A DNA stretch of 37,808 nucleotides, from the NCBI GenBank assembly GCA_029261455.1, contig JAJDBH010000011.1, positions 1-37,808 on the forward strand, read 5' to 3'. Source of the DNA: Nitrospinaceae bacterium (lineage in GTDB: Bacteria; Nitrospinota; Nitrospinia; Nitrospinales; VA-1). Shown one piece after another: positions 4,413-33,333 of the stretch. Position 1 is the stretch's first letter. Each line of letters begins with the position of its first letter. The translations under genes were made by a program, and so were the position numbers. The notes beneath the pieces were generated by a model. It was not told the origin of the DNA, searched no databases, and saw nothing but the letters and a program-made list of their open reading frames with translations.

Positions 4413-5778
4413 GGTCTTGAATAAAGAGTTTTTCGATTTGCTGCCTTCTAAAAATAAAGATTTTCTCAAGATCTTTTTTGACATAGGCATGGGCTAGAAT
4501 ATCCCCCGGTACCCACCCTGGAAGTTTGTAAGCCACATTGTCACGAATGACTGTGCCTCCCTTAGATTCGTAAAACTCATGGATGTGATGCCAGAAAGTA
4601 TAAGGCCCTCGGGTTTGCAGGTCTGAAAACCGCTTGTTAGGAAGCCAACCTGTAATTCGCGATTGCCAGCGCAGGGGAATGCTGTGTAGTTTCAACCTAT
4701 AGTCCACGACGGTTCCTTCCTGGGCCTTGGGGTGAGAGACTTTTACGATTTTGAAATGCAGGAACTCGGGAGTGAGGAGTTCCAAATTTTTTGGATCGGA
4801 AAAAAACTCAAAAACCTTATCAATAGGTTGTGGTACCCATTGCTCGGTGACAAGTTTATGACCAGCTTGGTCGCAAGTGACTTTTAGCGCGGTTTTTAGT
4901 TTTGGATAGATGAACTTGTAACCAAGGCCGACAGCTTTTTGTGCTGAAACATTCTGGCTGACCAATAGTAGTTGGGACATTTCCCCCAACAAAAGTTTCA
5001 GTACAAAAGCCGGAATGCTTAAAAAAGCAGGACGTTTTAATACGCCTGCCAGAATACTGGTGAATTCGCTGTTTTTTACTGGATGTGGGCTGACCGCATT
5101 TATGGGCCCTCGGTAAGAAGGGTTTTCAAGAGCGGCAAGAATCAGCCCTGACACGTCCCGCACATGAATCCAACTCATCCACGAGTTTCCTTTTCCCAGC
5201 GGACCTCCAAGCCCCATCCGAAAGGGAGGCAGCATTTTTGCGGTGATACCCCCATCATGCCCGAGAATAACTCCCAGACGTAAAGCCACGGCCCGGATTC
5301 CCAGTGCATCGGCTTTAAAAGTTTCTGTTTCCCAATCCTTACAGACTTTTGCTAGAAAACCATCGCCCGGAGGAGAGTTTTCTTCCAGAACCGGATGGTC
5401 AGAGCTTTTGTAATAGCCAATTGCGGAGGCAGAAATCCATATTTTGGGAAGAGTTGTAGATTTGCTGATCAGGTTGAGTAAATTGCGGGTGGAGAGAACC
5501 CTGGAGTCATAGATGGCTTGTTTGCGTTTTTTAGTCCAACGTCCATCCGCAATCCCTTCACCGCATAAATGGATCACGGCATCAATGTTTTCAGGGAAAT
5601 CCGGTAAGAGGGGGTGGTCAGTGGGGTCCCAATGGATTATCTGACAAGCAATTGGTAGTCGTACTCCGGCGCTATCCGTGTTCCGAGTCAAGGCAATGAC
5701 CTCGTGTCCATTGTCTTTGAGTAACGGAAGCAGGTTTCTTCCAACCAGACCTGTGGCTCCTGTAACTAATATTTTCAT
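4393..5778 (-). CDS. TIGR01777-family SDR fused to a C-terminal SRPBCC domain
   Basis: 461 residues with two parts. Residues 1 to about 300 are a YfcH/SDR39U1-type (TIGR01777) NAD(P)-binding SDR: KILVTGATGLVGRNLLP, VIHLCGEGIADGRWTKKRK, WISASAIGYY, and the family's GDGFLAKVCKDWE and SWIHVRDV motifs. From about 312 on the sequence is EQWVPQPIDKVFEFFSDP, then LLTPEFLHFKI and YRLKLHSIPLRWQSRI. This is an SRPBCC (START-like) ligand-binding domain of the polyketide cyclase/CoxG type. Stand-alone YfcH proteins are about 300 residues, so the fusion is clear. The cellular substrate of TIGR01777 proteins is unknown; the SRPBCC part suggests a hydrophobic ligand or quinone/lipid-like binding. The gene is apparently monocistronic and divergent from the CDGSH gene. 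Its last 20 bases overlap the 3' end of the convergent GT2 gene. Confidence 0.85.
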   Translation of the reverse strand: MKILVTGATGLVGRNLLPLLKDNGHEVIALTRNTDSAGVRLPIACQIIHWDPTDHPLLPDFPENIDAVIHLCGEGIADGRWTKKRKQAIYDSRVLSTRNLLNLISKSTTLPKIWISASAIGYYKSSDHPVLEENSPPGDGFLAKVCKDWETETFKADALGIRAVALRLGVILGHDGGITAKMLPPFRMGLGGPLGKGNSWMSWIHVRDVSGLILAALENPSYRGPINAVSPHPVKNSEFTSILAGVLKRPAFLSIPAFVLKLLLGEMSQLLLVSQNVSAQKAVGLGYKFIYPKLKTALKVTCDQAGHKLVTEQWVPQPIDKVFEFFSDPKNLELLTPEFLHFKIVKVSHPKAQEGTVVDYRLKLHSIPLRWQSRITGWLPNKRFSDLQTRGPYTFWHHIHEFYESKGGTVIRDNVAYKLPGWVPGDILAHAYVKKDLEKIFIFRRQQIEKLFIQDPKSNLE

Positions 5779-5883
5779 GAAAACCTTTTACCGTTTAAAT
5801 AACTTGTATTATGAATACCCATTGACAACTTCTGGAAAATTTGCGACCTTTCTCTTTTACTAACCTAAATAAAAGGATCATTC

Positions 5884-6114
5884 ATGGCTTACGAAAACAG
5901 TCCTATTTTTACAGATGAAACCCCAGGCAAAAAGTTTTTCTGTACCTGTGGGGAATCTGCCACGAAACCTTATTGTGATGGTTCGCATAGCACGAAAAAT
6001 ACTGGTAAATCCCCTAAAGAGTTTACTATAGAGGAAGCTCGACGATATGTGGTTTGTGATTGCGGGCGCACGGGAAAATCTCCTTTCTGCGATGGTACGC
6101 ATTCTAAGGGCTAG
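5884..6114 (+). CDS. Double CDGSH iron-sulfur domain protein
   Basis: 76 residues with two complete CDGSH [2Fe-2S] motifs. Ligands of the first are C20, C22, C31 and H35 (CTCG...PYCDGSH). Ligands of the second are C58, C60, C69 and H73 (CDCG...PFCDGTH). Both follow the C-x-C-x2-(S/T)-x3-P-x-C-D-G-(S/T)-H pattern exactly, so each should hold a redox-active, acid-labile 2Fe-2S cluster with 3Cys-1His coordination. Tandem-motif small proteins correspond to the CISD3/MiNT type of the family. The role is likely electron transfer or Fe-S handling in the cytoplasm. There is no signal peptide. The start is set by AAAGGA a few bases before ATG. A TTGACA hexamer lies at 5822-5827, but no convincing -10 follows. 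The gene stands alone between divergent and intergenic regions. Confidence 0.93.
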   Translation: MAYENSPIFTDETPGKKFFCTCGESATKPYCDGSHSTKNTGKSPKEFTIEEARRYVVCDCGRTGKSPFCDGTHSKG

Positions 6115-6269
6115 AGAGCAAAGTCTTGTTAAGTGGACATTTTTGTTTCTATAGAATACCGCGATTTATCTTCCCCGCCGGAAAATAATTTTCCTATAAT
6201 AGTGGGCATTTTGAGAGGTTTTGGGCTCACTAGCCTCATTATTTGTAGCTGAATATTTACAGGTCTTCT

Positions 6270-6297
6270 GCGTATGACAAATAATATTGTCATACGC
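6270..6297. promoter_or_regulatory. Perfect 11-bp palindrome, candidate activator (UAS) site
   Basis: Arms GCGTATGACAA (6270-6280) and TTGTCATACGC (6287-6297) flank a 6-nt ATAATA centre with no mismatch. It sits in the 337-base gap 6115-6451 between the CDGSH gene and the small orphan gene. Its centre is about 134 bases before the start point predicted from the sigma-54 motif at 6391-6407, a normal enhancer distance for a sigma-54 activator. No T-run follows, so a terminator is unlikely. A second, tighter AT palindrome (GGAAAAT-A-ATTTTCC, 6180-6194) lies in the same gap. No other feature was seen there. Confidence 0.6.
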
Positions 6298-6390
6298 GGC
6301 CTGCTTCTCTTCTTGTTCTTCCCTTTGAGTCAACCCGAAAAAACCTTGTTATTTCGTTAGTTATTGTCTTTTTTCCTCGGTCCGAACATT

Positions 6391-6407
6391 TTGGCAAAGG
6401 CTTTGCA
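6391..6407 (+). promoter_or_regulatory. Sigma-54 (-24/-12) promoter of the 71-residue orphan gene
   Basis: The 17-nt sequence TTGGCAAAGGCTTTGCA matches the YTGGCACGrNNNTTGCW consensus at all informative positions except two between the blocks. The -24 GG (6393-6394) and -12 GC (6405-6406) are separated by exactly ten bases. Predicted start is near 6418, giving a leader of about 34 bases with AGGAGA (6440-6445) before the ATG at 6452. Confidence 0.72.
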
Positions 6408-6451
6408 TTTTACCAGGTCAATACTAACTTTGATCTTTTAGGAGAAATGCC

Positions 6452-6667
6452 ATGCTTTACGATGTGAAGATTATGAATGCTCAGGGAGCAATTAAGAGGA
6501 TCGTTTCGTCTCAAGAAATCAGCAAGTCATATTGGAATGCATTTCAGTATGAAGAAGCGAATAAGACTCTGAACACAAGCAGTAGGAAGCAGGTTCCAAG
6601 TTGGGTGAAAAAAAGGTTGGATACTGAATATGCTATGCCTATGGATAGCCATAACTCAGCGGCGTAG
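6452..6667 (+). CDS. Small orphan protein of 71 residues (sigma-54 controlled)
   Basis: I do not recognise this protein. Coding is supported by a textbook ribosome site (AGGAGA, six bases before ATG) and a near-consensus sigma-54 promoter at proper distance. The product is soluble-looking with no signal peptide or membrane segment. It begins MLYDVKIMNAQGAIKRIVSSQEISKSYW, suggesting a short beta strand then a helix. A central Asn/Thr/Ser-rich part follows, then a PSWVKKRLDTEY segment and a polar SHNSAA tail. The first half resembles a small beta-alpha fold of a modulator or structural component, but no function can be assigned. It converges on the GT4 gene with 20 bases between stops. Possible roles under sigma-54 control include stress, nitrogen or motility accessory functions; this is inference. 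Confidence 0.75.
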   Translation: MLYDVKIMNAQGAIKRIVSSQEISKSYWNAFQYEEANKTLNTSSRKQVPSWVKKRLDTEYAMPMDSHNSAA

Positions 6668-6687
6668 AGTTTTTTACAGCAAGAGGT

Positions 6688-7827
6688 TCATTTGCCTTGA
6701 GAGGCAATGATCTCCTCGTAAACTTTCACCATTTCGCGGGTATTTTTTCCCACGGAAAACTGTTCAGCTAAGGCTCGACCATTTTGGCCCATGGTCTGCC
6801 GTACAGTTGGATCAAAAAGACTATTGATATTCTCGGCAACTTCTTCGGAGGATTCGGGGGTTTCAACTATCAGGCCGTTTTGTCTGTGCTGGATAATATC
6901 AGCCGCTCCGCAATGGCGGGTGGTTATGACAGGAAGCCCTGATGCCAATGCTTCGAGGTTGGCATTTCCAAAGGGCTCATAAATTGAGGGCAAGGCAAAA
7001 ATATCCGTAGCGGCATAATACTTTTCAATATCTGGAACCGGCTCTTTGTAGATGATTTGACTCCTCAGGTTTTCAGGTGCGAAATGGATATATTTTTTCC
7101 ATTTGCCTTTCCCCATTATTACCAGCCTCCAATCTTTAGACTTGAAATATTGAGTTGCCTGAAGAAGTGATTTCAGTCCCTTCCTTTCAAATCCAGATCC
7201 CACAAATAAAATAAGAACGGAGTTTTTTGGGATTTCCAGCTCCTTTCGGATGTTTTCTCTATATATATTTTTATTCTCAGGATGAAAACGTGTCAGGTCG
7301 ACCCCGTTATAGACCACCGAAATATTTTCCTGCGGGCAATGATAATGTTTGAGTATATCGTTTTTGACCATTTGGGAAATAGCGATGAATTTTCTACATT
7401 GGCCTGATTCGAATATGTTTTTTTCCAGTTTGAGAATCAACCGGTGAAAGGGGTTGAAAGAGAGAGAAAGTCCTTTAAGCACTGGGAGAAAACGTTTCCT
7501 TTGCTCCAGCCATTCCTTATGGCATCCATCGCCAACACGGTAGACACTTTGTTCCCAGGTTTTTTCATGGCTCTGAATAATGTCGAAAGATTCTTTTCCA
7601 ACAGCCCTGGCGGCAAACCATGCAAATGACAGGGTTCTTATGAAAGCATTAAGTTTAAAAGTTCGAACATGATGGAGATGTATATTGGGATGGTCGGATG
7701 AGGACCATTGGTTGGCAAAAATATGAATGTCGTGTCCAGCCTCGGCGAGTTGCTGGATATAGCCTTGAACAAACTGCTCGGCACCGCCATAAAGAACAAA
7801 TTTTTGCCGGATGATGGCTATTTTCAT
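6688..7827 (-). CDS. Glycosyltransferase family 4 (WaaG-like LPS core transferase)
   Basis: About 379 residues with a GT-B fold. The N-terminal domain has IRQKFVLYGGAEQFVQGYIQQLAEAGHDIHIFA, and the C-terminal domain shows LFVGSGFERKGLKSLLQA and VIMGKG. The donor-binding site is YEPFGNANLEALASGLPVITT, with the E-x7-E motif of GT4 enzymes. VGDGCHKEWLEQRKRFLP in the middle is characteristic of the WaaG/RfaG LPS core glucosyltransferase branch. I start it at ATG 7827; an in-frame TTG four codons upstream would give an unusual leader. It follows the other GT4 gene on the same strand with a 21-base gap, so the two are probably one transcript. Role: adding a hexose to nascent LPS core or surface glycan at the cytoplasmic face of the inner membrane. 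The sugar is not identifiable. Confidence 0.87.
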   Translation of the reverse strand: MKIAIIRQKFVLYGGAEQFVQGYIQQLAEAGHDIHIFANQWSSSDHPNIHLHHVRTFKLNAFIRTLSFAWFAARAVGKESFDIIQSHEKTWEQSVYRVGDGCHKEWLEQRKRFLPVLKGLSLSFNPFHRLILKLEKNIFESGQCRKFIAISQMVKNDILKHYHCPQENISVVYNGVDLTRFHPENKNIYRENIRKELEIPKNSVLILFVGSGFERKGLKSLLQATQYFKSKDWRLVIMGKGKWKKYIHFAPENLRSQIIYKEPVPDIEKYYAATDIFALPSIYEPFGNANLEALASGLPVITTRHCGAADIIQHRQNGLIVETPESSEEVAENINSLFDPTVRQTMGQNGRALAEQFSVGKNTREMVKVYEEIIASQGK

Positions 7828-7848
7828 GGTGCAGGCCAACCAAAAGAG

Positions 7849-9093
7849 TTAAGGATGAGAATTATTCAGAACGTCATGATAAATGGTTTCAATATTGTCC
7901 ATCATTCTATCAAGGCTCAATTCTTTTTTGCCGAAGCTATAAGCTTTTTCAGCCATAGATTGCGCTAGTTCAGGATCATTTAATAATTTCATAATTCCGT
8001 TGGCCATGTCCTGTGGGTTTTCAGGTTCGACCAAAATGCCCCATTCACCATTTCCAAGGATAGGTATAATGGAGTCCATGCGAGTGGAGACAACAGGGGT
8101 TTTCATTGCAATGGCTTGGGGAATGACCTGGGTTGTTCCTTCCATGCCGAATGACGCTACGCAATGGATATCCAGTGCGGCCATGATCTCTGGAATATCT
8201 TCACGGTGGCCAAGCACAAAAATGAATTTTTCAAGCCCCTGACTTTTGATTCTATCGCGGATGGATTCGAATGCAGGGCCTGAACCGACGATGGCAAATC
8301 GAGCATCCGGAAATTTTTCTAAAACGAAAGGGACGGAATCTATAAAATGTTCGTGACCCTTCCAACTACGAATCACAGAAACTATACCGATCAAAGGTTG
8401 ATGAGGGCTCAATCCCAGTTCGTTTCTTATTTTCTCTCCACTAATATGGAAGTCAAACTTTCTCAGGTCAACGCCTGCTGGTATGGAAATTATTTTATCA
8501 GCAGAGATCCCGGTATTTTCAGAGACTGTGTCTACAATGCTTCTGCCGCTGGCCAAAACACGCCTGGGTGCCTTCGCATAAAGCCACCGGTTGAAAACAT
8601 GATTTCTTATCGGGATCATGACATGCCGGCTTCGGATAATCGGGGTACCCAGCAGAGTCCCTGCCAAGGCTATCAACCAACTGTCTATAGAGCTGTGCGA
8701 TTGAAGAATGTCAGGTCGGGATGTTCTGATTATTTTTATCAACGAAAACAGGGTCAGTAAGCTGAAGGGCCGTCGCATTATCAAAGGAAAATAGTTCAGG
8801 TTCGGATGGTTGAACTGCTTACATTTTTCGTGGAGCGGACTGTCAGGTTGGCAAACAATAGTGACACGGTGCCCGCGCTCCAGAAGTGATTGGCATTCTT
8901 GAACTATCCTGATCTCCTGCCCGCCCCAACCTGCAGCGGCTTCAGAATGTAAGATGTGTAGGGTTTTCAATAAGGGGGCCTGTGAAAAAATGAGGGTCAG
9001 CGATACACGATTGAAAATTACCTTATCACAACCTTTTAGCGCAATGCAATCCAACGGAGCCACAGGGATTTTATATCTAGAATGCATTGCCAA
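7849..9093 (-). CDS. Glycosyltransferase family 4
   Basis: Up to 414 residues; GT-B. The catalytic module begins at KTLHILHSEAAAGWGGQEIRIVQECQSLLERGH, where the glycine-rich loop binds the acceptor side. It continues with DILQSHSSIDSW, GIVSVIRSWKGHEHFIDSV and FVLGHREDIPEIMAALDIHCVAS. The donor site is MEGTTQVIPQAIAMKTPVVST, so the usual E-x7-E becomes E-x7-Q, and GILVEPENP follows. The start is uncertain. TTG 9093 has AGGAAAG nine bases upstream but adds about 40 residues unlike the family. ATG 9087 or TTG 8970 (which puts KTLHIL at the N-terminus) are alternatives. It is the first gene of a two-gene GT4 unit transcribed away from the heptosyltransferase at 9189. The product probably extends LPS core or O-antigen. 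Confidence 0.83.
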   Translation of the reverse strand: MAMHSRYKIPVAPLDCIALKGCDKVIFNRVSLTLIFSQAPLLKTLHILHSEAAAGWGGQEIRIVQECQSLLERGHRVTIVCQPDSPLHEKCKQFNHPNLNYFPLIMRRPFSLLTLFSLIKIIRTSRPDILQSHSSIDSWLIALAGTLLGTPIIRSRHVMIPIRNHVFNRWLYAKAPRRVLASGRSIVDTVSENTGISADKIISIPAGVDLRKFDFHISGEKIRNELGLSPHQPLIGIVSVIRSWKGHEHFIDSVPFVLEKFPDARFAIVGSGPAFESIRDRIKSQGLEKFIFVLGHREDIPEIMAALDIHCVASFGMEGTTQVIPQAIAMKTPVVSTRMDSIIPILGNGEWGILVEPENPQDMANGIMKLLNDPELAQSMAEKAYSFGKKELSLDRMMDNIETIYHDVLNNSHP

Positions 9094-21866: not shown

Positions 21867-24521
21867 ATGAAGTCAGGTTGGTATAGTTTTTGCTCTATAA
21901 TACAGAAAAAAGCAATTACGTCAAAAATTATGGCTATCTCTTTAAATTTGATCAGGTTCATTTTGCTACTGCTGTTTACCCTATTGGGGGTGCAGGGGGC
22001 CTGCACAGTTGCGTGGGCTCAGGATTTTGAATCTGAATTTGTCCAACGTCCACAGGTTTCAACTATAAGGATAGGACCGCATCCTATTTATACCCGAATT
22101 TTGATCAACCTGACCGAGTCAGTTTCATATCAGGTTAAGGCAGATTTTGCTAATAAGCGGGTCACACTGATTTTATCAAACACAACAAAAAGTGCCAGGG
22201 TACGCAGTAAATCATTTAATGATAAAAATCTGGAGCAATACTCAGTTCGGTCCTTGAATGACGATTTACAAGTAACTTTTTTGCTAAAAAATCCCAATAC
22301 CCGGTTTTTTCATTCTGTGAACCCTCAAAAGTCACAGATCATTTTAGACCTCAAGGGCGAGAGTCGACCTATCTTGAGAACAAAAATAGGAAAGGCTAAG
22401 CGTAAACCCAGGTTTCAGACAAGCACTGAACCGAGCCCAGAGCAGACAGCGCTACCAAAAAAAGCCAGACTGATAGGTTTTAGCCCTAAGGAAATCCGGG
22501 CAATCGTTGCCAAATCCCAGGAAGAAAAGGAAACGAACGGCTGGGAAGATTACCAGAAAGCTTTGACAGAGTTTCAGCAGGCGAAATATCCCTCGGCTTC
22601 AAAAATGTTTAGGGAGTTTCAGTCAAACTACCCTAAAAGCATATATCTCGATCATATCCTTTATTTAAAAGCAGAAGCAGAATACCGCATCACATTCAAA
22701 GAATTGAACCCTATTTTTGATAGGGCTTTGGCCTCTTACAAACTTGCTATGCGGGAATTTCCTAAGTCAAAATTTTACGACCATGCTTTGTTGAAGGTAG
22801 CCAGTATTTTTGATGAAATTGGCTATAGTCTGGAGGCGAGGACACTTTTTAACCAAGGGCTAAAGTCCAAGCCGAGTAGCCTCTATAATGAAGTTCGGAA
22901 GAATAGCCTGGCCGCTATGCTGATGAAGGAGGGTCGGTTGGATGAAGCTTTTAATGCATTTCAGAAGATACTTAGAAAGTCTCCAAAAAATATTGCGGCA
23001 AAGGCAGGGGTTTTTGAAATTGCCAGCAAGTTTTTCGAGGAAGAAGATTATCCTCGTGCGCTAAAGATCTTTGAGACAGGGGCCAAGCGCTGGCCGGGCG
23101 AACTCAATGAGAAGCCTGAAATCAACTTTGCCATGGCTGAAATTTATTTTTCACAAAAAAATTACGAGAAAGCCAGAAAATATTTTTTCAATCTTTTGAA
23201 TCTGGACCCGGTTTCCGAGAACGCACATAAAGCTCTAAATCGAATTGGTGACTCTTTTATTGTCCAAGAAAAGTATCAGAATGCCTTGGCGGTTTTTGAT
23301 GAATCCGGGAAAAGAAAAGATCGGAAGCTAGATGAAGAAGGCAAGCCTGCTTTAGATGAAGAGGGTAACGAAATCCGGGAAGAAACTGCCGAAACCCAAT
23401 ACGGAAAAGTCCGAATGGCTGATATAGGAGTCCGCCAGCCACGTCTGAAAATAAGGGATATTGTTTTTGATGTAGGACCTTATTATAAGCCGTTTAAGAC
23501 TTACGAAAAAATATTTGCAGAAGCTCGAAGCGTTGATATTCTCGCAGAAGTGACCCTGAGTCGAGGCATCGCTTATCTGCTAGAGCAAAATTATCTGAAG
23601 GCTATAGAAGAGTTTAAAAAACTTTTGCCGCTGGGGCCTGGATCCCGATTTTTTCAGGAGGCTGATCGGTACATTCGGCAAGCACTGATTGCACTGGTCG
23701 ATAAATATGCCAAGCAGGATGGAAATCTGCCCATTCTTTACTCTTACAGCGATTTTATCAGTCTTCCCGTTGGTGATATTAACAACGCCCAAACTCTCCT
23801 TCAGGTGGGCGAAGCTTATCAGGCAATTGGCATGTTTGCCGAAGCTGTCAAATTCTATGAAAAAGTGAAGGCGTTGGACTCTCAGAAAACATATCGGGAT
23901 CGGGTTTTTCTAAACTTGGGCCAAATTCACTTGGAAAATTCAAGCTATGATGATGCGCTTTTAGTTGGACGGAATTTCTTGAAAAACTTTCCCAGAAGCA
24001 AGTGGATTCCAGATGCCATGAAGCTATTGGCCAATGCTTTGAAAGGGAAGGGGGATTTTTCAGGAGCCCTCAATGCTTACGAAGATTTTATGATGAAGTC
24101 TGAAGACAAGTCGGAAGTTCATTTTCTCATCGGAGAAACTTATGCGAACATGAATCAACTGGAGGATGCCGCGCAATCTTATCAAAAGGCGATTGCGACT
24201 TATGATCGCCAGGAAAGGGTGATTCCCGAGTATCTGCAGAAGTCTTATTACCGTTTAGGTATATCTTTTTATAAATTGAATCGTTTTGGTCCGGCCGTGG
24301 AGGCATTGAAATCGGCCAGAGAGCTTTTCCCCGATAATTCGTTACGAGACTGGGCAGATTTTCTCATGATTGAGAGCCTTGAGAAACTCGGCGATCCTTT
24401 AAAGGTTACGGAAGGATTAAACCAGCTGGTTAAAAATAAAAATACGGATGATCTTATCCGGCAAGCGGCGGAATCCAAGGCGAAAATTCAAGAATGGGAA
24501 AAACAATTAAAAGAAGGATGA
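21867..24521 (+). CDS. Large exported AMIN-domain TPR protein
   Basis: 884 residues. A long signal or anchor segment (residues 29-51, LIRFILLLLFTLLGVQGACTVAWAQ) is preceded by a basic region. If the start is ATG 21930 rather than 21867, the signal has normal length; neither has a good ribosome site. Residues 60-150 are an AMIN domain (VSTIRIGPHPIYTRILINLTESVSYQV), a periplasmic module that binds envelope or peptidoglycan parts in secretin and amidase systems. A linker with Lys/Pro comes next, then more than ten TPR-like units from about 225 to the end, such as NIAAKAGVFEIASKFFEEEDYPRALKIFETG and FLIGETYANMNQLEDAAQSYQKAI. It resembles periplasmic TPR scaffold proteins next to motility genes. 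It lies 154 bases before the flagellar-type kinase gene, in the same direction. The function is inference. Confidence 0.8.
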   Translation: MKSGWYSFCSIIQKKAITSKIMAISLNLIRFILLLLFTLLGVQGACTVAWAQDFESEFVQRPQVSTIRIGPHPIYTRILINLTESVSYQVKADFANKRVTLILSNTTKSARVRSKSFNDKNLEQYSVRSLNDDLQVTFLLKNPNTRFFHSVNPQKSQIILDLKGESRPILRTKIGKAKRKPRFQTSTEPSPEQTALPKKARLIGFSPKEIRAIVAKSQEEKETNGWEDYQKALTEFQQAKYPSASKMFREFQSNYPKSIYLDHILYLKAEAEYRITFKELNPIFDRALASYKLAMREFPKSKFYDHALLKVASIFDEIGYSLEARTLFNQGLKSKPSSLYNEVRKNSLAAMLMKEGRLDEAFNAFQKILRKSPKNIAAKAGVFEIASKFFEEEDYPRALKIFETGAKRWPGELNEKPEINFAMAEIYFSQKNYEKARKYFFNLLNLDPVSENAHKALNRIGDSFIVQEKYQNALAVFDESGKRKDRKLDEEGKPALDEEGNEIREETAETQYGKVRMADIGVRQPRLKIRDIVFDVGPYYKPFKTYEKIFAEARSVDILAEVTLSRGIAYLLEQNYLKAIEEFKKLLPLGPGSRFFQEADRYIRQALIALVDKYAKQDGNLPILYSYSDFISLPVGDINNAQTLLQVGEAYQAIGMFAEAVKFYEKVKALDSQKTYRDRVFLNLGQIHLENSSYDDALLVGRNFLKNFPRSKWIPDAMKLLANALKGKGDFSGALNAYEDFMMKSEDKSEVHFLIGETYANMNQLEDAAQSYQKAIATYDRQERVIPEYLQKSYYRLGISFYKLNRFGPAVEALKSARELFPDNSLRDWADFLMIESLEKLGDPLKVTEGLNQLVKNKNTDDLIRQAAESKAKIQEWEKQLKEG

Positions 24522-24675: not shown

Positions 24676-25956
24676 ATGACTGAAGTCGGCAAAGAAAAGA
24701 GCAAAGATATAGAAGCCCTCATGAAGAATATGGAGGCCTTCAACGAGGTCACTGAACAATTACAACGTTCCTATGATGAATTGCAGGTGAGAGTAAAACA
24801 ACTTGATCTGGAGTTGGAGGGTAAAAACATTGAGTTGGAAAAAAACCTTATTGAAAAAGAAGAAGTTAAAAATTATTTAAACGACATTCTGGAAAGCCTC
24901 ACCAACGGTGTTATTGTGGTGGACCGGTCGGGGAAAATTACAACGTTCAATCAAACTGCAGGTGCTTTAACGGGTTTAAAGCCGCAAAACTGTTTAGGGA
25001 AAACCTTGAAAGAAGTTTTCCCGTTTGATCTGTTTGAAAATATGGTGTCCAGACTTGAGAAAAATAGAGGGGAAACGGTCAGCCGGGATCAGGATATCAC
25101 CACTCCCGATAAGAAAATAATTCATGCCCGTGTTTCTGCTTCCCCGGTATGGGACAATCATGGTGGTCAGATAGGAACAGTGTTGATCTTGCAAGATAGA
25201 ACCGATTTGCGCCGGTTAGAAGAGTTGGCTAATCGTAACCAACGACTTCGGGAAATGGGGGAGATGGCAGCCGGGATCGCGCATGAAATCAGAAATCCCC
25301 TGGCGAGTATCGAATTGTTTGCCTCGTTACTTAAAAAAGATCTGGAAGAAGAACCCGAAAAAGGTAAGCTGGTTCAGCATATCCGCGCAGGCGTGAAGAA
25401 CATGGACCGCATCATATCCACTCTCCTCTTGTTTGCAAAATCATCCAAGCCATCGCGTCAGCAATGCGATATCAATCTTTTATTATCACAACTTTTGGAC
25501 GGGCTGGACGATATCAAAGTACCGGGAAATATTAAAGTAGTGCGAGACTTTGACAAGGAAGAGATGATGGCGAATGGCGACCGGGAATTATTGCGACAGG
25601 TTTTTCCTAATTTGATCCGTAATGCAATTCAGGCTATGCCGGACGGAGGAGAATTGTGTCTGCAAACCAGGAAGGCTCTTATACCTGTGGCCGAAAATGA
25701 TAGTGGAGCAGGTGCCCGTAAATTCATTACTGTTACGATTTCCGATACCGGTGGAGGAATTTCTGCCGATGATATTGCTAAAATTTTTAATCCTTTTTTT
25801 ACTACCAAGGATAAAGGGACAGGGCTGGGGCTGGCCATATCGCATAATATCATCAAAGCCCACCAAGGGACGATTGAAGCCATGAGCGAAGAAGGCAAGA
25901 GCACTTCTTTCAAAGTCAAGATTCCCTGCTGGGATGAGGATTTCGATGAAAAGTAA
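24676..25956 (+). CDS. PAS sensor histidine kinase, FlrB/FleS/NtrB type
   Basis: 426 residues, soluble. A coiled-coil N-terminus (about 5-65) leads to a PAS domain (about 66-180, ILESLTNGVIVVDRSGKITTFNQTAGALTG). HisKA follows with phospho-accepting H203 in AAGIAHEIRNPLAS. The HATPase domain has the N box NLIRNAIQ (312-319), G1 SDTGGGIS (356-363), the F box FNPFFTTK and G2 GTGLGLAI (381-388). All kinase motifs are intact. Its 3' end overlaps the response regulator gene, so the pair is co-expressed. The AtoS/NtrB/FlrB architecture, and the flagellar operon directly downstream of its partner, point to the FlrB-FlrC or FleS-FleR class that drives middle flagellar genes through sigma-54. The signal sensed by the PAS domain is unknown. 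Confidence 0.88.
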   Translation: MTEVGKEKSKDIEALMKNMEAFNEVTEQLQRSYDELQVRVKQLDLELEGKNIELEKNLIEKEEVKNYLNDILESLTNGVIVVDRSGKITTFNQTAGALTGLKPQNCLGKTLKEVFPFDLFENMVSRLEKNRGETVSRDQDITTPDKKIIHARVSASPVWDNHGGQIGTVLILQDRTDLRRLEELANRNQRLREMGEMAAGIAHEIRNPLASIELFASLLKKDLEEEPEKGKLVQHIRAGVKNMDRIISTLLLFAKSSKPSRQQCDINLLLSQLLDGLDDIKVPGNIKVVRDFDKEEMMANGDRELLRQVFPNLIRNAIQAMPDGGELCLQTRKALIPVAENDSGAGARKFITVTISDTGGGISADDIAKIFNPFFTTKDKGTGLGLAISHNIIKAHQGTIEAMSEEGKSTSFKVKIPCWDEDFDEK

Positions 25957-27328
25957 TTCTTCAAAAAAAATTCTGATTGTCGATGATGAACCTGAAATGA
26001 GGGTTGCACTGGAGACAACCCTTCAGCGCGAGAACTATCAACTCGTTTGCGCGGAAGACGGCAAACAGGCATTGGAGCAGTTTGAAAATCAGGTGTTCGA
26101 TCTGGTTTTGACAGATGTGCGCATGCCAAAACTAAATGGATTGGAATTGTTGCGTGAGGTCAAAGAACGTTCTCCTCAAACGCCAGTGGTCATGATGACC
26201 GCGTACGGAACCATTGATAACGCGGTTGAGGCTATGAAGGAAGGGGCCTTTGATTATCTGATAAAGGGTTCAGGATTTTCTGCCGATGTTCTGGTTTCTA
26301 CAGTTAAGCGTGCGTTTTTAAGTCCACAGGATTATATTCCTCCTGCGCGACCATCGGGTGTCATCGATAAAGCTGATTCTCCAGTTACAAAAAGAATTGT
26401 GACTCAGGATGAGGGAATGAAGAAACTCCTGAAGTTTGCCGAAAACGTTGCATACAGTAAGTCGACCGTTCTCATTATGGGAGAGACTGGAACCGGGAAG
26501 GAATTATTTGCGCGTTATATTCATCAATGCAGTCCTCGTACTGATAAATCTTTTATGGCGGTCAATTGCGCCGCATTACCTGAAGGTTTGCTGGAGTCTG
26601 AACTGTTCGGTCATGAGAAGGGGTCGTTCACCGGAGCCACAGAAAATAAAGAAGGCAAGTTTGAGCTAGCGCACCAAAGTTCACTACTTCTGGATGAGGT
26701 TACAGAGATGAGCTTGCCTTTGCAGGCTAAACTGCTTAGAGTCTTGCAAGAGCATGAAGTGGATAAAGTGGGTGGCAAAGCCCCTATCCCGGTGGATGTA
26801 AGGGTGATTGCCACAACCAATCGGGATATTCGTCGCCGGATTGAAGATCATGAATTCAGAGAAGATCTGTATTACCGGTTGAATGTGGTTCCTTTGATCC
26901 TTATTCCTCTGCGTGAAAGAATGGATGATATCCCACTGCTGGCGGAATATTTTATGAATCAGTTTTGCCAGGAAAACTCCCGCCCTCTTTTGAAGATAGA
27001 CCCAGCGACCCTGACCCTGTTGAAGAAATATCGCTGGCCAGGCAATATCCGTGAACTTGGAAATATTATTGAGCGATCCTGCCTGATGTGTCAGGGCGAT
27101 ACCCTTCTTCCGGCGAACCTGTTTTTTGATGACGAGCCTCTCTCGACCGGGAAAAAAGACGCTACGCCAAAGCTATCGGGAACTATTCATGCAATGGAAA
27201 AGGAACTGATCAAGCAAACACTTGAGGAGTTTAGCGGTAATAAAACCAAAGCCGCCGATTCATTAGGCATTAGTATCCGCACCCTGCGCAACAAACTCAA
27301 CGAATATAACGAAGGTGAGAAGGAATAA
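25946..27328 (+). CDS. Sigma-54-dependent response regulator, FlrC/FleR type
   Basis: 460 residues. The receiver domain has acidic D13-D14 and phospho-acceptor D57 in LVLTDVRMPKLNG; the switch Thr is in VVMMTAYG. The conserved Lys is followed by Gly (LIKGSG) where most receivers have Lys-Pro. The AAA+ domain has Walker A GETGTGKE, then ELFGHEKGSFTGATENKEG, where the sigma-54 contact loop reads GSFTGA instead of GAFTGA. It continues with Walker B LLLDEVTE, an ATTNRD sensor and RLNVVPL. A Fis-type helix-turn-helix (NKTKAADSLGISIRTLRNKL) ends the protein. I start at ATG 25946, five bases after GAGGA; ATG 25934 is less well placed. The gene overlaps the kinase gene by 11 bases. It most likely activates the sigma-54 promoter 160 bases after its own stop, upstream of flgC. 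Confidence 0.9.
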   Translation: MKSNSSKKILIVDDEPEMRVALETTLQRENYQLVCAEDGKQALEQFENQVFDLVLTDVRMPKLNGLELLREVKERSPQTPVVMMTAYGTIDNAVEAMKEGAFDYLIKGSGFSADVLVSTVKRAFLSPQDYIPPARPSGVIDKADSPVTKRIVTQDEGMKKLLKFAENVAYSKSTVLIMGETGTGKELFARYIHQCSPRTDKSFMAVNCAALPEGLLESELFGHEKGSFTGATENKEGKFELAHQSSLLLDEVTEMSLPLQAKLLRVLQEHEVDKVGGKAPIPVDVRVIATTNRDIRRRIEDHEFREDLYYRLNVVPLILIPLRERMDDIPLLAEYFMNQFCQENSRPLLKIDPATLTLLKKYRWPGNIRELGNIIERSCLMCQGDTLLPANLFFDDEPLSTGKKDATPKLSGTIHAMEKELIKQTLEEFSGNKTKAADSLGISIRTLRNKLNEYNEGEKE

Positions 27329-27577: not shown

Positions 27578-28015
27578 ATGGACTTTCTGACAAATATGAA
27601 AATCAGTTCATCGGGCTTAAGTGTTCAGCGTAAGCGGATGGAAACTATTTCCAGCAATCTGGCCAATTTGGAGACCACACGAACTCCTGAAGGTGGTCCT
27701 TATCGGCGGAAAGATATCCTGGTCACTGCTTTACCTGTAGAAAATGAATTTGGAAACACTTTTAAAAACGAGTTGGGCGATAAGTTGAGGAAGGTGCAGG
27801 TTACAGATGTGATTGAAGATCAGGAAGAACCGCGTCTGGTTTTCAACCCGAGTCACCCCGATGCTAATGATTTAGGTTATGTAGCAATGCCCAATATCGA
27901 TCAAATGACGGAGATGGTGAATATGGTTACCACGCAACGGTCATTTGAGGCAAATGTCACAGCACTCAATGCTTCCAAGGCTATGGCCATTCGAGCGATT
28001 GATCTGGGCCGTTAA
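27578..28015 (+). CDS. flgC: Flagellar proximal rod protein FlgC
   Basis: 145 residues, normal for FlgC. The N-terminal flagellar rod motif is MKISSSGLSVQRKRMETISSNLANLETTRTPEGGPYRRK, with the ANxxT-type segment and the PYRRK of FlgC. The C-terminal helix is VNMVTTQRSFEANVTALNASKAMAIRAIDL. FlgC builds the proximal rod on the MS ring with FlgB and FliE. It is exported by the flagellar type III system without a cleaved signal. The start is secured by GAGGATC just before ATG. It is the first gene of the seven-gene operon; the usual neighbours flgB (before) and fliE (after) are absent, and fliF starts 36 bases later. The central variable loop is moderately long but the protein looks complete. Confidence 0.95.
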   Translation: MDFLTNMKISSSGLSVQRKRMETISSNLANLETTRTPEGGPYRRKDILVTALPVENEFGNTFKNELGDKLRKVQVTDVIEDQEEPRLVFNPSHPDANDLGYVAMPNIDQMTEMVNMVTTQRSFEANVTALNASKAMAIRAIDLGR

Positions 28016-28050: not shown

Positions 28051-29646
28051 ATGGAAAACTTTCTGGATTTTTTAAGGCAGTTTGGCGACCGGTTCAACGA
28101 ACTTTCACAAGGCAAGAAAGTGGCGGCTCTGTCTCTTGTGGCTTTGGCGCTGGCATCTTTGTTAGTGATGTCTTTTTGGTTGAAGACTCCAGACTTTCAG
28201 CTACTTTATGCCAACCTGTCTCAGGAAGACGCAGGAGCTATTGTGGATAAGCTGAAAAACCAGAAAATTCCTTTTGAACTTGCCAATGGAGGCCGGACAA
28301 TTCGCATTGCTTCAGACAAGTTACATGAAGTGCGCTTGCAGTTGGCCAGTGAAGGGTTGCCGGAAGGTTCCGATGTTGGTCTGGAAATTTTTGAGGACAC
28401 TCCTTTGGGAATGACGGAGTTTGTGCAGAAATTGAATTTCCAAAGAGCCTTGCAGGGTGAGCTGACCCGTACTATCAAGTCCCTTGACGCGGTGGCCCAA
28501 GTTCGGGTCCATCTGGTTATTCCGAAAGACAATCTGTTTCGTAAGGATAAACCCAAGGGCAAGGCTTCTATTACGTTGAAAGTGAAATCGGGTAAAACTT
28601 TGACTGAAACCCAGGTGCAAGGAATTGTTCACTTGGTTTCCGCCAGTGTTGGGGGTATCGCCGCGCAGGATGTGGTGGTGGTTGATCTGAAGGGTAATTT
28701 GTTGTCCGGCGGGAAAGAACCTTCTACTGAAGCAATGCTTTCATCGACAAATTTCAAACATAAAACGCGGGTGGAAAGAGCGCTGCAACAAAATATCATC
28801 AAAATGTTAGAAGACGCATTGGGGCCGGGAAAAGTGATTGCTAAAGTTACGGCGGCCTTGGATTTTGAAAAGGTAGAAAGAACTGAAGAAATTTATGATC
28901 CGGACTCGCAGGTCGTGAGAAGTGAGAATCAGGTCAGTGAAACCTCTACGGGTGCTGTGCCTCCGGGCGGTGTTCCTGGTGTTCAGGCTCTGGTACCTTC
29001 CGGTGGGGCTCCGGGTGGAGTTGCCGGACAGGCGGCTCAGAGGAATAAATCGAATGCTCTGTTCAATTATGAAATCAATAAAGTAGTTCGGCATGTATCG
29101 AAGCCTCTAGGAGAGATTTCCAAGCTCAGTGTTGCAGTGATGATCGATGGCACTACGGTTGGTGATCCTGCAGAGTATCAGGCGCGATCGCAGGAAGATA
29201 TGGACAAGTACTTGCAAATTGTTCAGTCAGCGGTGGGGTTTGATCAGGATAGAGGGGATATTATTCAGGTTGAGAACATTCAATTTGATCGATCTGAGTT
29301 AGAAGCGCAGAGGGAAAGCATTGCCCGTGCAGAACAGATTGATCTTGGCATGGAAATCGGAAAACTGGTGGTGGGCCTTGTGTTCCTCATTCTGTTTTTC
29401 ACTCGCATCATTCGCCCGATTATCAATTGGATGACGATGTCGGTGGAAGTTGTTGCGGAAACGGACCAGTTGAGTACGGGAGATTTTGATGCAGTTGATG
29501 AAGAGAAACGCCGCCTCAGTGAGATGGCTTCTGAATCAGCTCATGTTCGTGAGTCGGTGGCGGAATTTGTTCACAAAGATCCCAAGTATACTGCCGGCGT
29601 GATCCGGAAATGGATGCGGGAAAAAGAACCTAAAGCGAAAGCTTAA
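28051..29646 (+). CDS. fliF: Flagellar MS-ring protein FliF
   Basis: 531 residues, close to the usual 530-570. Two membrane segments flank a large periplasmic part: residues about 23-44 (KVAALSLVALALASLLVMSFWL) and about 433-453 (IGKLVVGLVFLILFFTRIIRP). Ring-building motifs RBM1/RBM2 are recognisable: LLYANLSQEDAGAIVDKLKNQKIPFELANGGRTIRI, then LASEGLPEGSDVGLEIFEDTPLGMTEFVQKLNFQRALQGELTRTI. The Ala/Gly/Pro-rich insert GAVPPGGVPGVQALVPSGGAPGG near residue 305 replaces the variable beta-collar region. The C-terminal cytoplasmic tail (about 500-531, SVAEFVHKDPKYTAGVIRKWM) is the FliG-binding helix. The rings form the inner-membrane base on which the rod, switch and export gate are built. The ribosome site is weak; it follows flgC closely and is likely translated from the operon message. 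Confidence 0.96.
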   Translation: MENFLDFLRQFGDRFNELSQGKKVAALSLVALALASLLVMSFWLKTPDFQLLYANLSQEDAGAIVDKLKNQKIPFELANGGRTIRIASDKLHEVRLQLASEGLPEGSDVGLEIFEDTPLGMTEFVQKLNFQRALQGELTRTIKSLDAVAQVRVHLVIPKDNLFRKDKPKGKASITLKVKSGKTLTETQVQGIVHLVSASVGGIAAQDVVVVDLKGNLLSGGKEPSTEAMLSSTNFKHKTRVERALQQNIIKMLEDALGPGKVIAKVTAALDFEKVERTEEIYDPDSQVVRSENQVSETSTGAVPPGGVPGVQALVPSGGAPGGVAGQAAQRNKSNALFNYEINKVVRHVSKPLGEISKLSVAVMIDGTTVGDPAEYQARSQEDMDKYLQIVQSAVGFDQDRGDIIQVENIQFDRSELEAQRESIARAEQIDLGMEIGKLVVGLVFLILFFTRIIRPIINWMTMSVEVVAETDQLSTGDFDAVDEEKRRLSEMASESAHVRESVAEFVHKDPKYTAGVIRKWMREKEPKAKA

Positions 29647-29649
29647 TGT

Positions 29650-30648
29650 ATGAATATCAACGGACCTGAAAAAGCAGCCATCTTCCTGATGAACCTGGGC
29701 GAAGAGAAAGCCGCGCAGGTGTTGGCGAATATGGATGAAGAGGAAATCCAAATCCTTGGGAACTACATGTCGACTTTGGGTGAGATAGAAACTCCGGTCA
29801 TGGACTCTGTAAACAGAGATTTTTATAATTTGGTCGAAACGGGATCCAGTAAGTTGAATACGGGTGGGATGGGATTCCTTGAATCCATTCTTAAGAAAGC
29901 CATTGATCCAGAAAAGGCCACCCAGATTTTAAAAAATATCACCTCACCGGGCGAGGAAATGAGCGGTGGCTTGGAAACTGTTCGGCATCTTGATCCTAAG
30001 GTCATTGCTTCATTTATCAGAAAAGAACATCCCCAGACTGCGGCAATTATTCTTGCGCATCTTGAGGGCAACGCTGCAAGTCAGACTCTTCGAGAGATAC
30101 CTGAGGCACAGCGTATGGAAATAGTTCATCGCCTTGCGACTTTAGAAAGGGTGTCACCACGTGTTATTCGTGACTTGGATGATGCTCTGAAGAATGAATT
30201 CAAAAAGTCTGCAGCCGTTTCAGGAAAAAAACTGGGCGGAGTCGAAATGGCAGCAAAACTTATGTCATCTCTGGACAGAACAACGGAATCGGATATATTG
30301 ACTTCTATGGAGGAAGTGGATCCGAGCATGGTCGATGAGATTCGTAATTTGAGGTTCACTTTTGAAGACATTCTTAAAATAGATGACAATGGAGTTCAGT
30401 TAGTCATTAAGGAAGTAGTGCACGAAGATCTATTGGTGTCTTTGAAAACAGCCACCGATGAATTGAAAGAAAAATTGTTTTCTAATATGTCAGAACGTGC
30501 GGCAATAATGCTGAAAGAGGACTTAGAATCTCTGGGGCCAATGAAAATCAGTGACGTCGAGAAGGCTCAGCAGAATATTATTTCTGTGTGCAAGCAATTA
30601 GAAGAAAATGGAAAAGTCCTAATAGGCGGAGGAGAAGCCCTTGTCTGA
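29650..30648 (+). CDS. fliG: Flagellar motor switch protein FliG
   Basis: 332 residues, exactly the usual size. The N-terminal domain (GPEKAAIFLMNLGEEKAAQVLANMDEEEI) binds FliF. The middle domain carries the EHPQ motif in FIRKEHPQTAAIILAHLEG. The C-terminal torque domain has the charged ridge LRFTFEDILKIDDNGVQLVIKEV and LKTATDELKEKLFSNMSERAAIMLKEDLESLGP, where the motor-facing Lys/Glu/Arg/Asp residues are conserved. FliG links the MS ring to FliM and interacts with the stator MotA. It starts four bases after the fliF stop and overlaps fliH by eight bases, so translation is coupled. Nothing is unusual; the protein should be functional, in contrast to the downstream fliI. Confidence 0.96.
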   Translation: MNINGPEKAAIFLMNLGEEKAAQVLANMDEEEIQILGNYMSTLGEIETPVMDSVNRDFYNLVETGSSKLNTGGMGFLESILKKAIDPEKATQILKNITSPGEEMSGGLETVRHLDPKVIASFIRKEHPQTAAIILAHLEGNAASQTLREIPEAQRMEIVHRLATLERVSPRVIRDLDDALKNEFKKSAAVSGKKLGGVEMAAKLMSSLDRTTESDILTSMEEVDPSMVDEIRNLRFTFEDILKIDDNGVQLVIKEVVHEDLLVSLKTATDELKEKLFSNMSERAAIMLKEDLESLGPMKISDVEKAQQNIISVCKQLEENGKVLIGGGEALV

Positions 30649-31570
30649 TTTAAGCAAAATGTTCACCTTGAGTAATCTTGCAGCAGAACGAAAAGAGGAA
30701 GGCAAATCTCCAAAGGAGGCGCGCTCTTACAAATTGAATGAACTGATTATTGAAAGTCCTTCCATGCGTCGAGGTTTCACTTATGACTCGGAAAATGCCA
30801 GGAATTTCGATCAGTCAAATGTAAATAAAGCCAAAGTGGGTGTTAAAGAGCTTCTTAAAGATACTCTGGATAAGGCGAAAAGACAGGCTACGGATATTAA
30901 AGCTCATGCTCAAAAGCAAGGTTATGATGAAGGTTATGCCGAGAGCTTTAAAAAAGGAGAAGATGCCTCCCGGGAGGAATTCCAACCGTTCTTAAAAACG
31001 ATAGAGGGTTTGATTTCAGATTTGACCAGCTTTCGCAAAGATATGTATGACAAGGGAGAGCGGGAGATGGTCGAAATGGTGGTTGGTTTGGCGAAGAAGG
31101 TCATTCACTTTGAATTTTCCACTCGTGATGATGCTGTGCAGGAGATGATTCGTCTGGCAGTTCAATCGGTGCTTGACCGTGAATCGATGGTTATAAAAAT
31201 TAATCCTACAGATAAAGGATATGCTGAGAGCTTTCGTCCAGAATTGCATCATTTATTTAGTGAGATAAAAAATATTACTTTTGAGGCGCATTCCGGGGTA
31301 GAGCGAGGTGGATGTGTTGTGGAAACCAATTTTGGCGTGGTCGATGCGAGGATTGACAAATTGGGCGAGCAGATGGATCGTATCCTCAACCTTGCTCCTC
31401 CCGTTCCCGAGGAATTGGCTTCTGCAGCAAGTGTGAAAACGGAGCCAGCTGTTGAAGAGGACTCTGAAGACGAAAAAAAACAACCTGAAAAGAATGAAAT
31501 TTCTGCAGATGATCAAACCCAGTTGGATGAGAGTGGTGCAGAAACTGAACCTCCTGAAGAAACGAGTTGA
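30641..31570 (+). CDS. fliH: Flagellar export apparatus protein FliH with acidic C-terminal tail
   Basis: 309 residues, against 220-260 in most bacteria. The N-terminal part has FliN/FliG-proximal charged helices and the glycine-repeat-like GYDEGYAESFKKGEDASREEF. The VMD/V-type ATPase stator-like core follows (MVEMVVGLAKKVIHFEFSTRDDAVQEMIRLAVQSVL), then GGCVVETNFGVVDARIDKLGEQMDRI. After about residue 250 a Glu/Asp/Pro-rich tail of about 60 residues has no match in common FliH. FliH regulates the FliI ATPase and docks the FliH-FliI complex to FliN. The start TTG 30641 is preceded by GGAGGAG with ideal spacing and overlaps the fliG end. Because the partner fliI is interrupted, FliH function may depend on readthrough. 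Confidence 0.9.
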   Translation: MSDLSKMFTLSNLAAERKEEGKSPKEARSYKLNELIIESPSMRRGFTYDSENARNFDQSNVNKAKVGVKELLKDTLDKAKRQATDIKAHAQKQGYDEGYAESFKKGEDASREEFQPFLKTIEGLISDLTSFRKDMYDKGEREMVEMVVGLAKKVIHFEFSTRDDAVQEMIRLAVQSVLDRESMVIKINPTDKGYAESFRPELHHLFSEIKNITFEAHSGVERGGCVVETNFGVVDARIDKLGEQMDRILNLAPPVPEELASAASVKTEPAVEEDSEDEKKQPEKNEISADDQTQLDESGAETEPPEETS

Positions 31571-31576
31571 TAAATT

Positions 31577-32896
31577 ATGGATGCTGTAATTGATTTAAAA
31601 AAATATAGTTCCTTTATAAATAAAACCGATTTCGTTAAGAAAACGGGAAAGGTGAATCGCATTATCGGTTTGGTCATTGAAGGTGATGGTCCGGCGGTAT
31701 CAGTGGGAAGCCTCTGCACTATATACCCCAGTAACCGGCCGTCTATTCAGGCTCAGGTGGTAGGGTTTCAAGACAAGAGAATTTTATTGATGCCCTTGGG
31801 AGATATAATGGGAATTGAACCCGGGAGCATTATCGAGGCCACAGAAGAATACCCAACTTATCAAGTGGGTAATGCACTGATTGGAAGAATTATTGATGGT
31901 AATGGTGAGCCTATTGACGGTAAAGGGCCAATTCCTACGGGTGTTGAATATCCGCTGATGGGTAAACCGATGAATCCTTTGGATCGAAAACGTTTGAGAG
32001 AGCCACTGGATATTGGAGTTCGGTCAATCAATGGACTGCTATCTTTTGCCAAAGGTCAGAGATTGGGAATTCTAGCTGGTACAGGTGTTGGTAAGTCGGT
32101 CTTGATGGGAATGATCGCCCGCAATACCAATGCTGATGTCAACGTGATCGCGCTTATTGGTGAAAGGGGCAGGGAAGTAAAAGAGTTTATAGAAGAGAAC
32201 CTCGGTGAAGAAGGCTTGAAAAGGTCTGTAGTGATAGCGGCTGCTTCTGACCAGCCTCCGCTTGTCCGATTACGAGGGGCCTATATTGCTACGACCATCG
32301 CTGAATATTTTCGCGATCAAGGAAACGATGTTATGTTAATGATGGATTCAGTCACTCGCTTTGCTCTGGCGCAAAGAGAGATCGGTCTTTCTGTGGGTGA
32401 GCCTCCCACAACACGTGGATTTACACCGTCGGTATTTTCCTTGCTACCAAAACTATTGGAACGTGCGGGAACTTCTTCTGGAGAAGGTTCAATAACGGGG
32501 CTTTACACAGTTTTGGTTGAGGGCGATGACTTAAACTAGCCAATATCTGATGCTGTGCGGGCCATCCTCGATGGACATATTGTTCTGAGTCGTGACTTGG
32601 CTTCACACAATCATTATCCAGCCATAGATATTCTGAATAGTGTCAGTCGTCTGATGATTGATGTTGTCTCCAAGGAACATTATGATTTATCTATGAAATT
32701 TAAGGATATTTTAGCAACGTATAAATCGGCCGAAGACTTGATCAATATTGGAGCTTATACACGTGGTAGTAATCCAAAGATTGACCATGCCATTCAAAAA
32801 TATGATCTCATGATTCCTTACCTCAGGCAGGGAATAGCAGAAAGTGTTGACTGGAGAACCAGTATGAATGAATTGAAAAATATTCTGGAGAGTTGA
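31577..32896 (+). pseudogene. fliI: Flagellum-specific ATPase FliI, interrupted by one in-frame TAG
   Basis: A single frame of 440 codons encodes a full FliI except for TAG at 32537-32539 (codon 321). Before it come the N-terminal beta barrel, GVRSINGLLSFAKGQRLGI, Walker A AGTGVGKS (167-174), LIGERGREV, Walker B VMLMMDSVTRFA and LLPKLLERAG, up to LVEGDDLN. After it PISDAVRAILDGHIVLSRDLASHNHYPAIDILNSVSR continues in the same frame to the family end. Homologues have Glu at this spot (EGDDMNEPI), so GAG to TAG is a one-base change. The truncated 320-residue product would lose the last 119 residues, including part of the nucleotide-site surroundings and the whole C-terminal domain. Internal restart at GTG 32555 has no ribosome site. 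It is a pseudogene, a sequence error, or a readthrough gene; I cannot decide which. The operon is otherwise intact. Confidence 0.9.
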
Positions 32897-32898
32897 TT

Positions 32899-33333
32899 TT
32901 GAGTTTCCGATTCGAAACCATACTTCGTTTAAATAAAAAGAAGGAAGACCTTCTTCAGAGAGATATGGGCCAGATCAACGTCCATTATCAACGGCAACAG
33001 GATCGCCAACAGTTTATGCAGGATGCCACAGAGGCAAGTAAAGATGAGTTGAACCAAAAGAAAAGATCAGGGGTTAGCGTTGAAACAATGATCTTGTATG
33101 ATAACTTTGCCAGAGGAACCCGAACTCAAGTTGAGAAGCAAAGTAAAATCATTTCTGAAATTAATACCAAGCTGGAGGCCAAGCGAGAAGAGGTGGTAGA
33201 AGCAATGCGCAAGCGCCGGACGATGGAAATTTTGAAAGAAAGAGATATGTTAAAAGAACGAAAAGTCAGGGAAAGGAAGGAAACGGCAATTCTGGATGAG
33301 GTGGCTTCTAATCTCTGGATGAGAAAAACTTAA
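32899..33333 (+). CDS. fliJ: Flagellar export chaperone FliJ
   Basis: 144 residues, the usual size. It is almost entirely coiled coil: FRFETILRLNKKKEDLLQRDM at the N-terminus, then long Lys/Glu/Gln/Arg helices to the end, as in FliJ and the gamma subunit of rotary ATPases. FliJ inserts into the FliI hexamer and couples it to FlhA. I choose TTG 32899 with GGAG eight bases before it; TTG 32893 is possible but too close to that site. It begins two bases after the end of the fliI frame, so its translation depends on ribosomes that reach that end. If the TAG in fliI is real, polar effects on fliJ are expected unless readthrough or the GGAG alone suffices. Confidence 0.82.
   Translation: MSFRFETILRLNKKKEDLLQRDMGQINVHYQRQQDRQQFMQDATEASKDELNQKKRSGVSVETMILYDNFARGTRTQVEKQSKIISEINTKLEAKREEVVEAMRKRRTMEILKERDMLKERKVRERKETAILDEVASNLWMRKT

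Follow-up and report, generated by a model that had tools for sequence, protein, structure and literature searches.

The flagellar export ATPase gene fliI of a Nitrospina relative is interrupted by one premature TAG, which replaces a conserved glutamate codon and is found in this genome alone among the relatives compared. We favour the reading of this TAG as a true allele of the sampled population or strain that arose by one private nonsense substitution, with a probability of roughly 0.6; such an allele would also be recent.

A lone TAG splits an otherwise intact fliI frame

The window, the whole stretch of 37,808 nucleotides that was analysed, is contig C11 of a 3,512,834-base genome in 234 contigs, estimated to be 84.5% complete and 3.1% contaminated. 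Among named matches, a Nitrospina sp. metagenome assembly ranks first (90% identity), followed by Nitrospinae and Nitrospinaceae assemblies at 71 to 77%. The fliI frame (31577–32896, plus strand) has 440 positions and carries, besides its terminal stop, one internal stop, the TAG of codon 321 (32537–32539). The portion up to and including this TAG (31577–32539; 320 codons and the stop) encodes the N-terminal barrel and the greater part of the ATPase domain. In the portion past it (32540–32896; 118 codons and the terminal stop) the ATPase domain ends and is followed by the T3SS ATPase C-terminal domain. In Pfam, PF00006 continues across the TAG, with profile positions 1–176 matched before it and 178–213 after it, and PF18269, the T3SS ATPase C-terminal domain, comes after the end of PF00006, downstream of the TAG. 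The ATP-synt_ab and T3SS ATPase C-terminal domains and the placement between fliH and fliJ identify the gene as fliI; a working FliI would need its catalytic and C-terminal domains in one uninterrupted frame, which the stop at codon 321 breaks. These results confirm the TAG-split fliI first noticed from the letters and open reading frames (the sequence-only reading), both as the only defect in a 440-codon frame and as a stop flanked on either side by in-frame sequence with family motifs.

The surrounding genes are intact. For fliH (30641–31570) and fliJ (32893–33333), both on the plus strand, one Pfam match each and near end-to-end alignment with sister genomes bear out the earlier impression that they are undamaged. 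Pfam and sister alignments likewise show intact plus-strand genes for a flgC-like flagellar basal-body rod protein (27578–28015), fliF (28051–29646) and fliG (29650–30648) and, upstream of the flagellar genes, a sensor kinase (24676–25956) and a sigma-54 response regulator (25934–27328). The genome also has an intact flhA, and its nine flagellin-domain matches, one of them below the cut-off, lack internal stops. If this genome has begun on a path of flagellar decay, fliI would therefore be its first visible step.

The TAG is private to one genome

We read codon 321 in 32 relatives from the genus, family and order, 11 of them in the same genus. The frame was open in all, with GAA in 21 and GAG in 11, in agreement with the earlier claim that the TAG replaces a conserved Glu. 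At the same site, 80 loci from bacteria at large have Glu (65) or Asp (15), always an acidic residue; one additional row of the pattern search (L086) was discarded as a chance hit, and one record was probably counted in both sets (L034 and the contig of G007, equal in length and in match position). When 46 family genomes, including the window's own, were searched with the FliI of an intact relative, 32 matched at E ≤ 1e−60, and none of the 31 others had a stop inside the match. The TAG is thus private to the window's genome. Conservation of the TAG had been suggested as a check on readthrough; none of the 32 relatives read and none of the 31 other family genomes share it. The close relatives all have a Glu codon, GAA or GAG, the outcome that the sequence-only reading had named as pointing to an error or a strain mutation rather than a readthrough system.

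Both halves of fliI remain constrained

The ratio of non-synonymous to synonymous substitution (dN/dS) was low on both sides of the TAG: 0.034 before and 0.019 after against sister genome G004, and 0.045 and 0.039 against G003. Across seven sisters, the ratio after the TAG fell below the one before it in four and exceeded it in the other three, G015, G002 and G010, and the 118 codons past the TAG contain one amino-acid change private to the window's lineage. Because the downstream part is constrained like the upstream part, the stop should be young, wrong or bypassed. We saw no relaxation of selection on the flagellar genes in the window's lineage: their ratio of private amino-acid to synonymous changes (0.61) compares with 0.49 to 2.09 in seven sisters, a set that varies from gene to gene; a loss of selection thus has no independent sign. 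The private stop, the intact neighbours and the lack of further decay downstream are the features expected of a recent nonsense allele.

Other interrupted genes in the genome

Single stops of this kind also occur elsewhere in the genome. We surveyed 100 stretches of the window's genome only (1,317,699 of 3,512,834 bases, with 13,359 N) for same-frame neighbours separated by one stop and with coding-like sequence on both sides. This gave 137 candidates in 80 stretches (73 TAA, 43 TGA and 21 TAG) and, with an extra filter for competing frames, 15 more in 20 further stretches. All 152 were sorted by eye, and both pieces of nine were searched against Pfam. The same family was found on both sides in six of the nine: fliI, L193, L199, L200 and L171, all with TAG, and L188, with TAA; the upstream pieces of L193 and L171 score under Pfam's own cut-offs.

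The accepted cases are varied. The TAG in L193 lies in a degenerate GGDEF protein gene. A giant multicopper oxidase (L200; G000:C29, 1561–1563, minus strand) has 930 codons before its TAG and 520 after it to the contig end; the gene consists of repeats of one domain, so its continuity is not strict. The site is Lys in all nine readable relative loci (11 were tried; L260 and L261 were off-pattern). The TAG of a lipoprotein gene (PF03923; L171; G000:C3, 975–977, minus strand) falls at a site with Gln in 11 of 12 other loci and Lys in one, and that of an epimerase at a contig end (L199; G000:C28, 174–176, minus strand) at a site with Tyr in all 14 other loci. Two cases involve TAA: a phage capsid gene in a phage-like region (L188; G000:C21, 8606–8608), with PF05065 on both sides, and a cobN-like gene (L213; G000:C42, 10371–10373) from which the stop seems to remove about 76 front codons, accepted by eye with a Pfam match in the downstream piece alone. 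Two further candidates were rejected, L178 for lack of a Pfam match and L248 as two different genes. A separate observation concerns a frame that we take to be TlyA-like (L187; G000:C20, about 4050–4120, minus strand): the 60 codons examined contain no start and, judged by eye, its start is likely to be in another frame just before an A run, by slippage or an indel.

Seven accepted stop-split genes in 1.32 Mb divide 5:2:0 among TAG, TAA and TGA, a split with P = 0.052 for an expected TAG share of 0.345 or P = 0.075 for 0.376, both uncorrected and with the TAG cases examined first. At the four comparable TAG sites the residues found in relatives are Glu, Lys, Tyr and, for the most part, Gln, in codon sets that are all one base from TAG. 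We read these stops as scattered nonsense and not as recoding, the pattern expected of random nonsense or of random base error.

True allele or consensus error

The alternative that survives best is a sequencing or consensus error, in which the contig base is wrong, for example through thin coverage or merged strains, and the organism's own fliI is intact. We consider this a real possibility, though a minority one. The bin is fragmented and some contamination is estimated, and divergent versions of a single flagellar region occur in it: the end of C49 (L191) and the start of C219 (L192) overlap by 398 bases at 94% identity. The epimerase likewise has an intact copy on G000:C223 that is 91% alike to the TAG copy on C28. 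Such divergent copies make a consensus error plausible, and so does the company that the fliI stop keeps, since the conserved genes that carry further single stops in this bin include TAG cases on the short contigs C3 (4.9 kb) and C29 (6.4 kb) and at the end of C28. Full constraint on both halves of fliI is also what an error would leave. However, C11 is a long contig (37.8 kb) without N whose other flagellar frames are clean, and the flagellar genes lack the excess of private changes that a high error rate would yield.

A true allele is supported by the privacy of the TAG, the intact flagellar neighbours and flhA, the flagellins without internal stops, the constraint on both halves of fliI with one private amino-acid change past the TAG, the losses of flagella in other members of the genus and the similar single stops elsewhere in the genome. 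Against it stand the unrelaxed flagellar genes and the codon of the two sisters with the most similar proteins (G004 and G010), which is GAA, two steps from TAG; other members of the genus have GAG. A literature search on nonsense mutations in metagenome-assembled genomes found no paper. Weighing both sides, we retain the private nonsense allele as the preferred reading.

Decoding of the UAG is improbable

The sequence-only reading had listed three options, a recent mutation, a sequence error and controlled readthrough of the export ATPase. The first two stand; the third loses its support to the privacy of the TAG, the tRNA search, the conserved codon after the stop and the ordinary fold downstream. 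In readthrough, ribosomes would decode the fliI UAG often enough, possibly under control, to make a working FliI. Purifying selection on both halves of the gene is consistent with this, as is the share of TAG among the accepted gene-breaking stops (five of seven, against an expected 0.35 to 0.38; P of 0.05 to 0.07, the TAG cases having been examined hardest). No relative conserves the TAG, however, and the suppressor tRNA proposed as a check did not appear: none of 37 tRNA genes found with ARAGORN (150 of 231 first-look candidates scored, in an assembly 84.5% complete) has the anticodon CUA. The base after the TAG is C, as had been noted, but it lends no support to a permissive context. It opens a proline codon, and each of the 32 relatives has CCN at that place; the C predates the stop. 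RNA structure past the TAG was rejected as a signal, folding no better than shuffles (z = +0.56). We found neither stop context nor structure in fliI beyond what coding demands, and we regard readthrough as very unlikely.

Near-cognate tRNAs may nevertheless read the fliI UAG leakily. A broader version of this idea is that termination at UAG is weak throughout the lineage, such that UAG nonsense in fliI, the giant multicopper oxidase, the lipoprotein gene and others would be nearly neutral and accumulate, with useful full-length FliI still being made. Weak termination of this sort would be rare in nature, and we hold it to be slightly more doubtful still.

The idea that UAG has been reassigned genome-wide, or codes for pyrrolysine, is already contradicted and has a negligible chance of being right. 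The further in-frame TAGs in conserved genes could be taken in its favour, but TAG terminates 102 of 491 long stop-ended frames in the sample and 7 of the 30 listed genes of the window, which upholds the earlier statements that TAG is an ordinary terminator of at least seven genes here and that genome-wide recoding is unlikely. Loss of release factor 1 is ruled out by an intact prfA (539.5 bits), and the best PylS match scores 23.5 bits against a cut-off of 178.15. Because the TAG sites differ in the residue that relatives carry (Glu, Lys, Tyr or Gln), no single new meaning of UAG fits them. We conclude that the fliI TAG is best explained as an ordinary nonsense allele or else as an error of assembly, and that the readthrough reading is unsupported.

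Predicted effect on FliI and motility

If the private nonsense allele is real, the TAG would leave an export ATPase of 320 residues. The truncated FliI would keep the P-loop (residues 168–174) and the catalytic-Glu motif GERGREV (from residue 195), and would lose the arginine of SVSR (355–358) together with the whole C-terminal domain. Arginine 358 is probably the arginine finger. A passage of PMC9114704 places the catalytic glutamate of Salmonella FliI at residue 211 and its arginine finger at 374, a spacing that would fit residues 196 and 358 here, compared by position and not by alignment. Given the loss of this arginine and of the C-terminal domain, the truncated product should not work as an ATPase. 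Section 10 of the same source describes only very weak motility in Salmonella without FliH and FliI, so if the allele is real the cells are likely to move poorly or not at all, with motility weakened or lost.

Flagellar loss in the genus

Flagellar loss occurs in this genus. In one genus member (G013; 98% complete), about 8.9 kb is gone between the equivalents of window positions 23326 and 32217, and the deletion joins the inside of the gene at 21867–24521 to the second half of fliI. Its fliJ lies in two frames, a TGA and a shift of frame disrupt its flhA, and the one flagellin match carries a TAA; the decayed system lies at L165 (G013:C14:78000-97999, about 5741–8150) and at G013:C5:292151-293624. 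FliI, FlhA and flagellin matches were absent from three other genomes (G001, G005 and G014; 57%, 97% and 74% complete), and in G012 (82% complete) fliI was not found although flhA and flagellin are present. The result thus points to a genus that is losing flagella repeatedly, with decay in G013 and no flagellar match in G001, G005 and G014.

Comparison with known systems

The fliI stop is an already known kind of event, one broken copy in one reconstructed genome whose relatives have intact copies, and in itself it matters little. It carries two cautions. When one premature stop turns up in a fragmented metagenome bin, it counts as evidence of recoding only if reads and relatives back it, and a '+4' base that looks favourable may be nothing more than the next conserved codon.

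With UAG suppression, readthrough and pyrrolysine systems, fliI shares an in-frame UAG with conserved coding sequence beyond it; it differs in that the UAG is unconserved, its context is ordinary, and neither a suppressor tRNA nor PylS was found. The FliI/SctN export ATPases, for which parts of PMC9114704 and PMC6367419 give the landmark residues of Salmonella FliI and EscN, have the same Pfam domains that lie here on either side of the stop, and the P-loop and catalytic-Glu motifs are present, whereas the frame here stops at 320 residues, short of both the likely arginine finger and the C-terminal domain. Flagellar nonsense alleles and early pseudogenes differ in that the fliI stop is the sole lesion in the window's flagellar genes, with no other sign of relaxed selection. 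They resemble it in having one stop in a gene that is otherwise intact, among intact neighbours, and a member of the same genus, G013, stands at a later stage of such decay.
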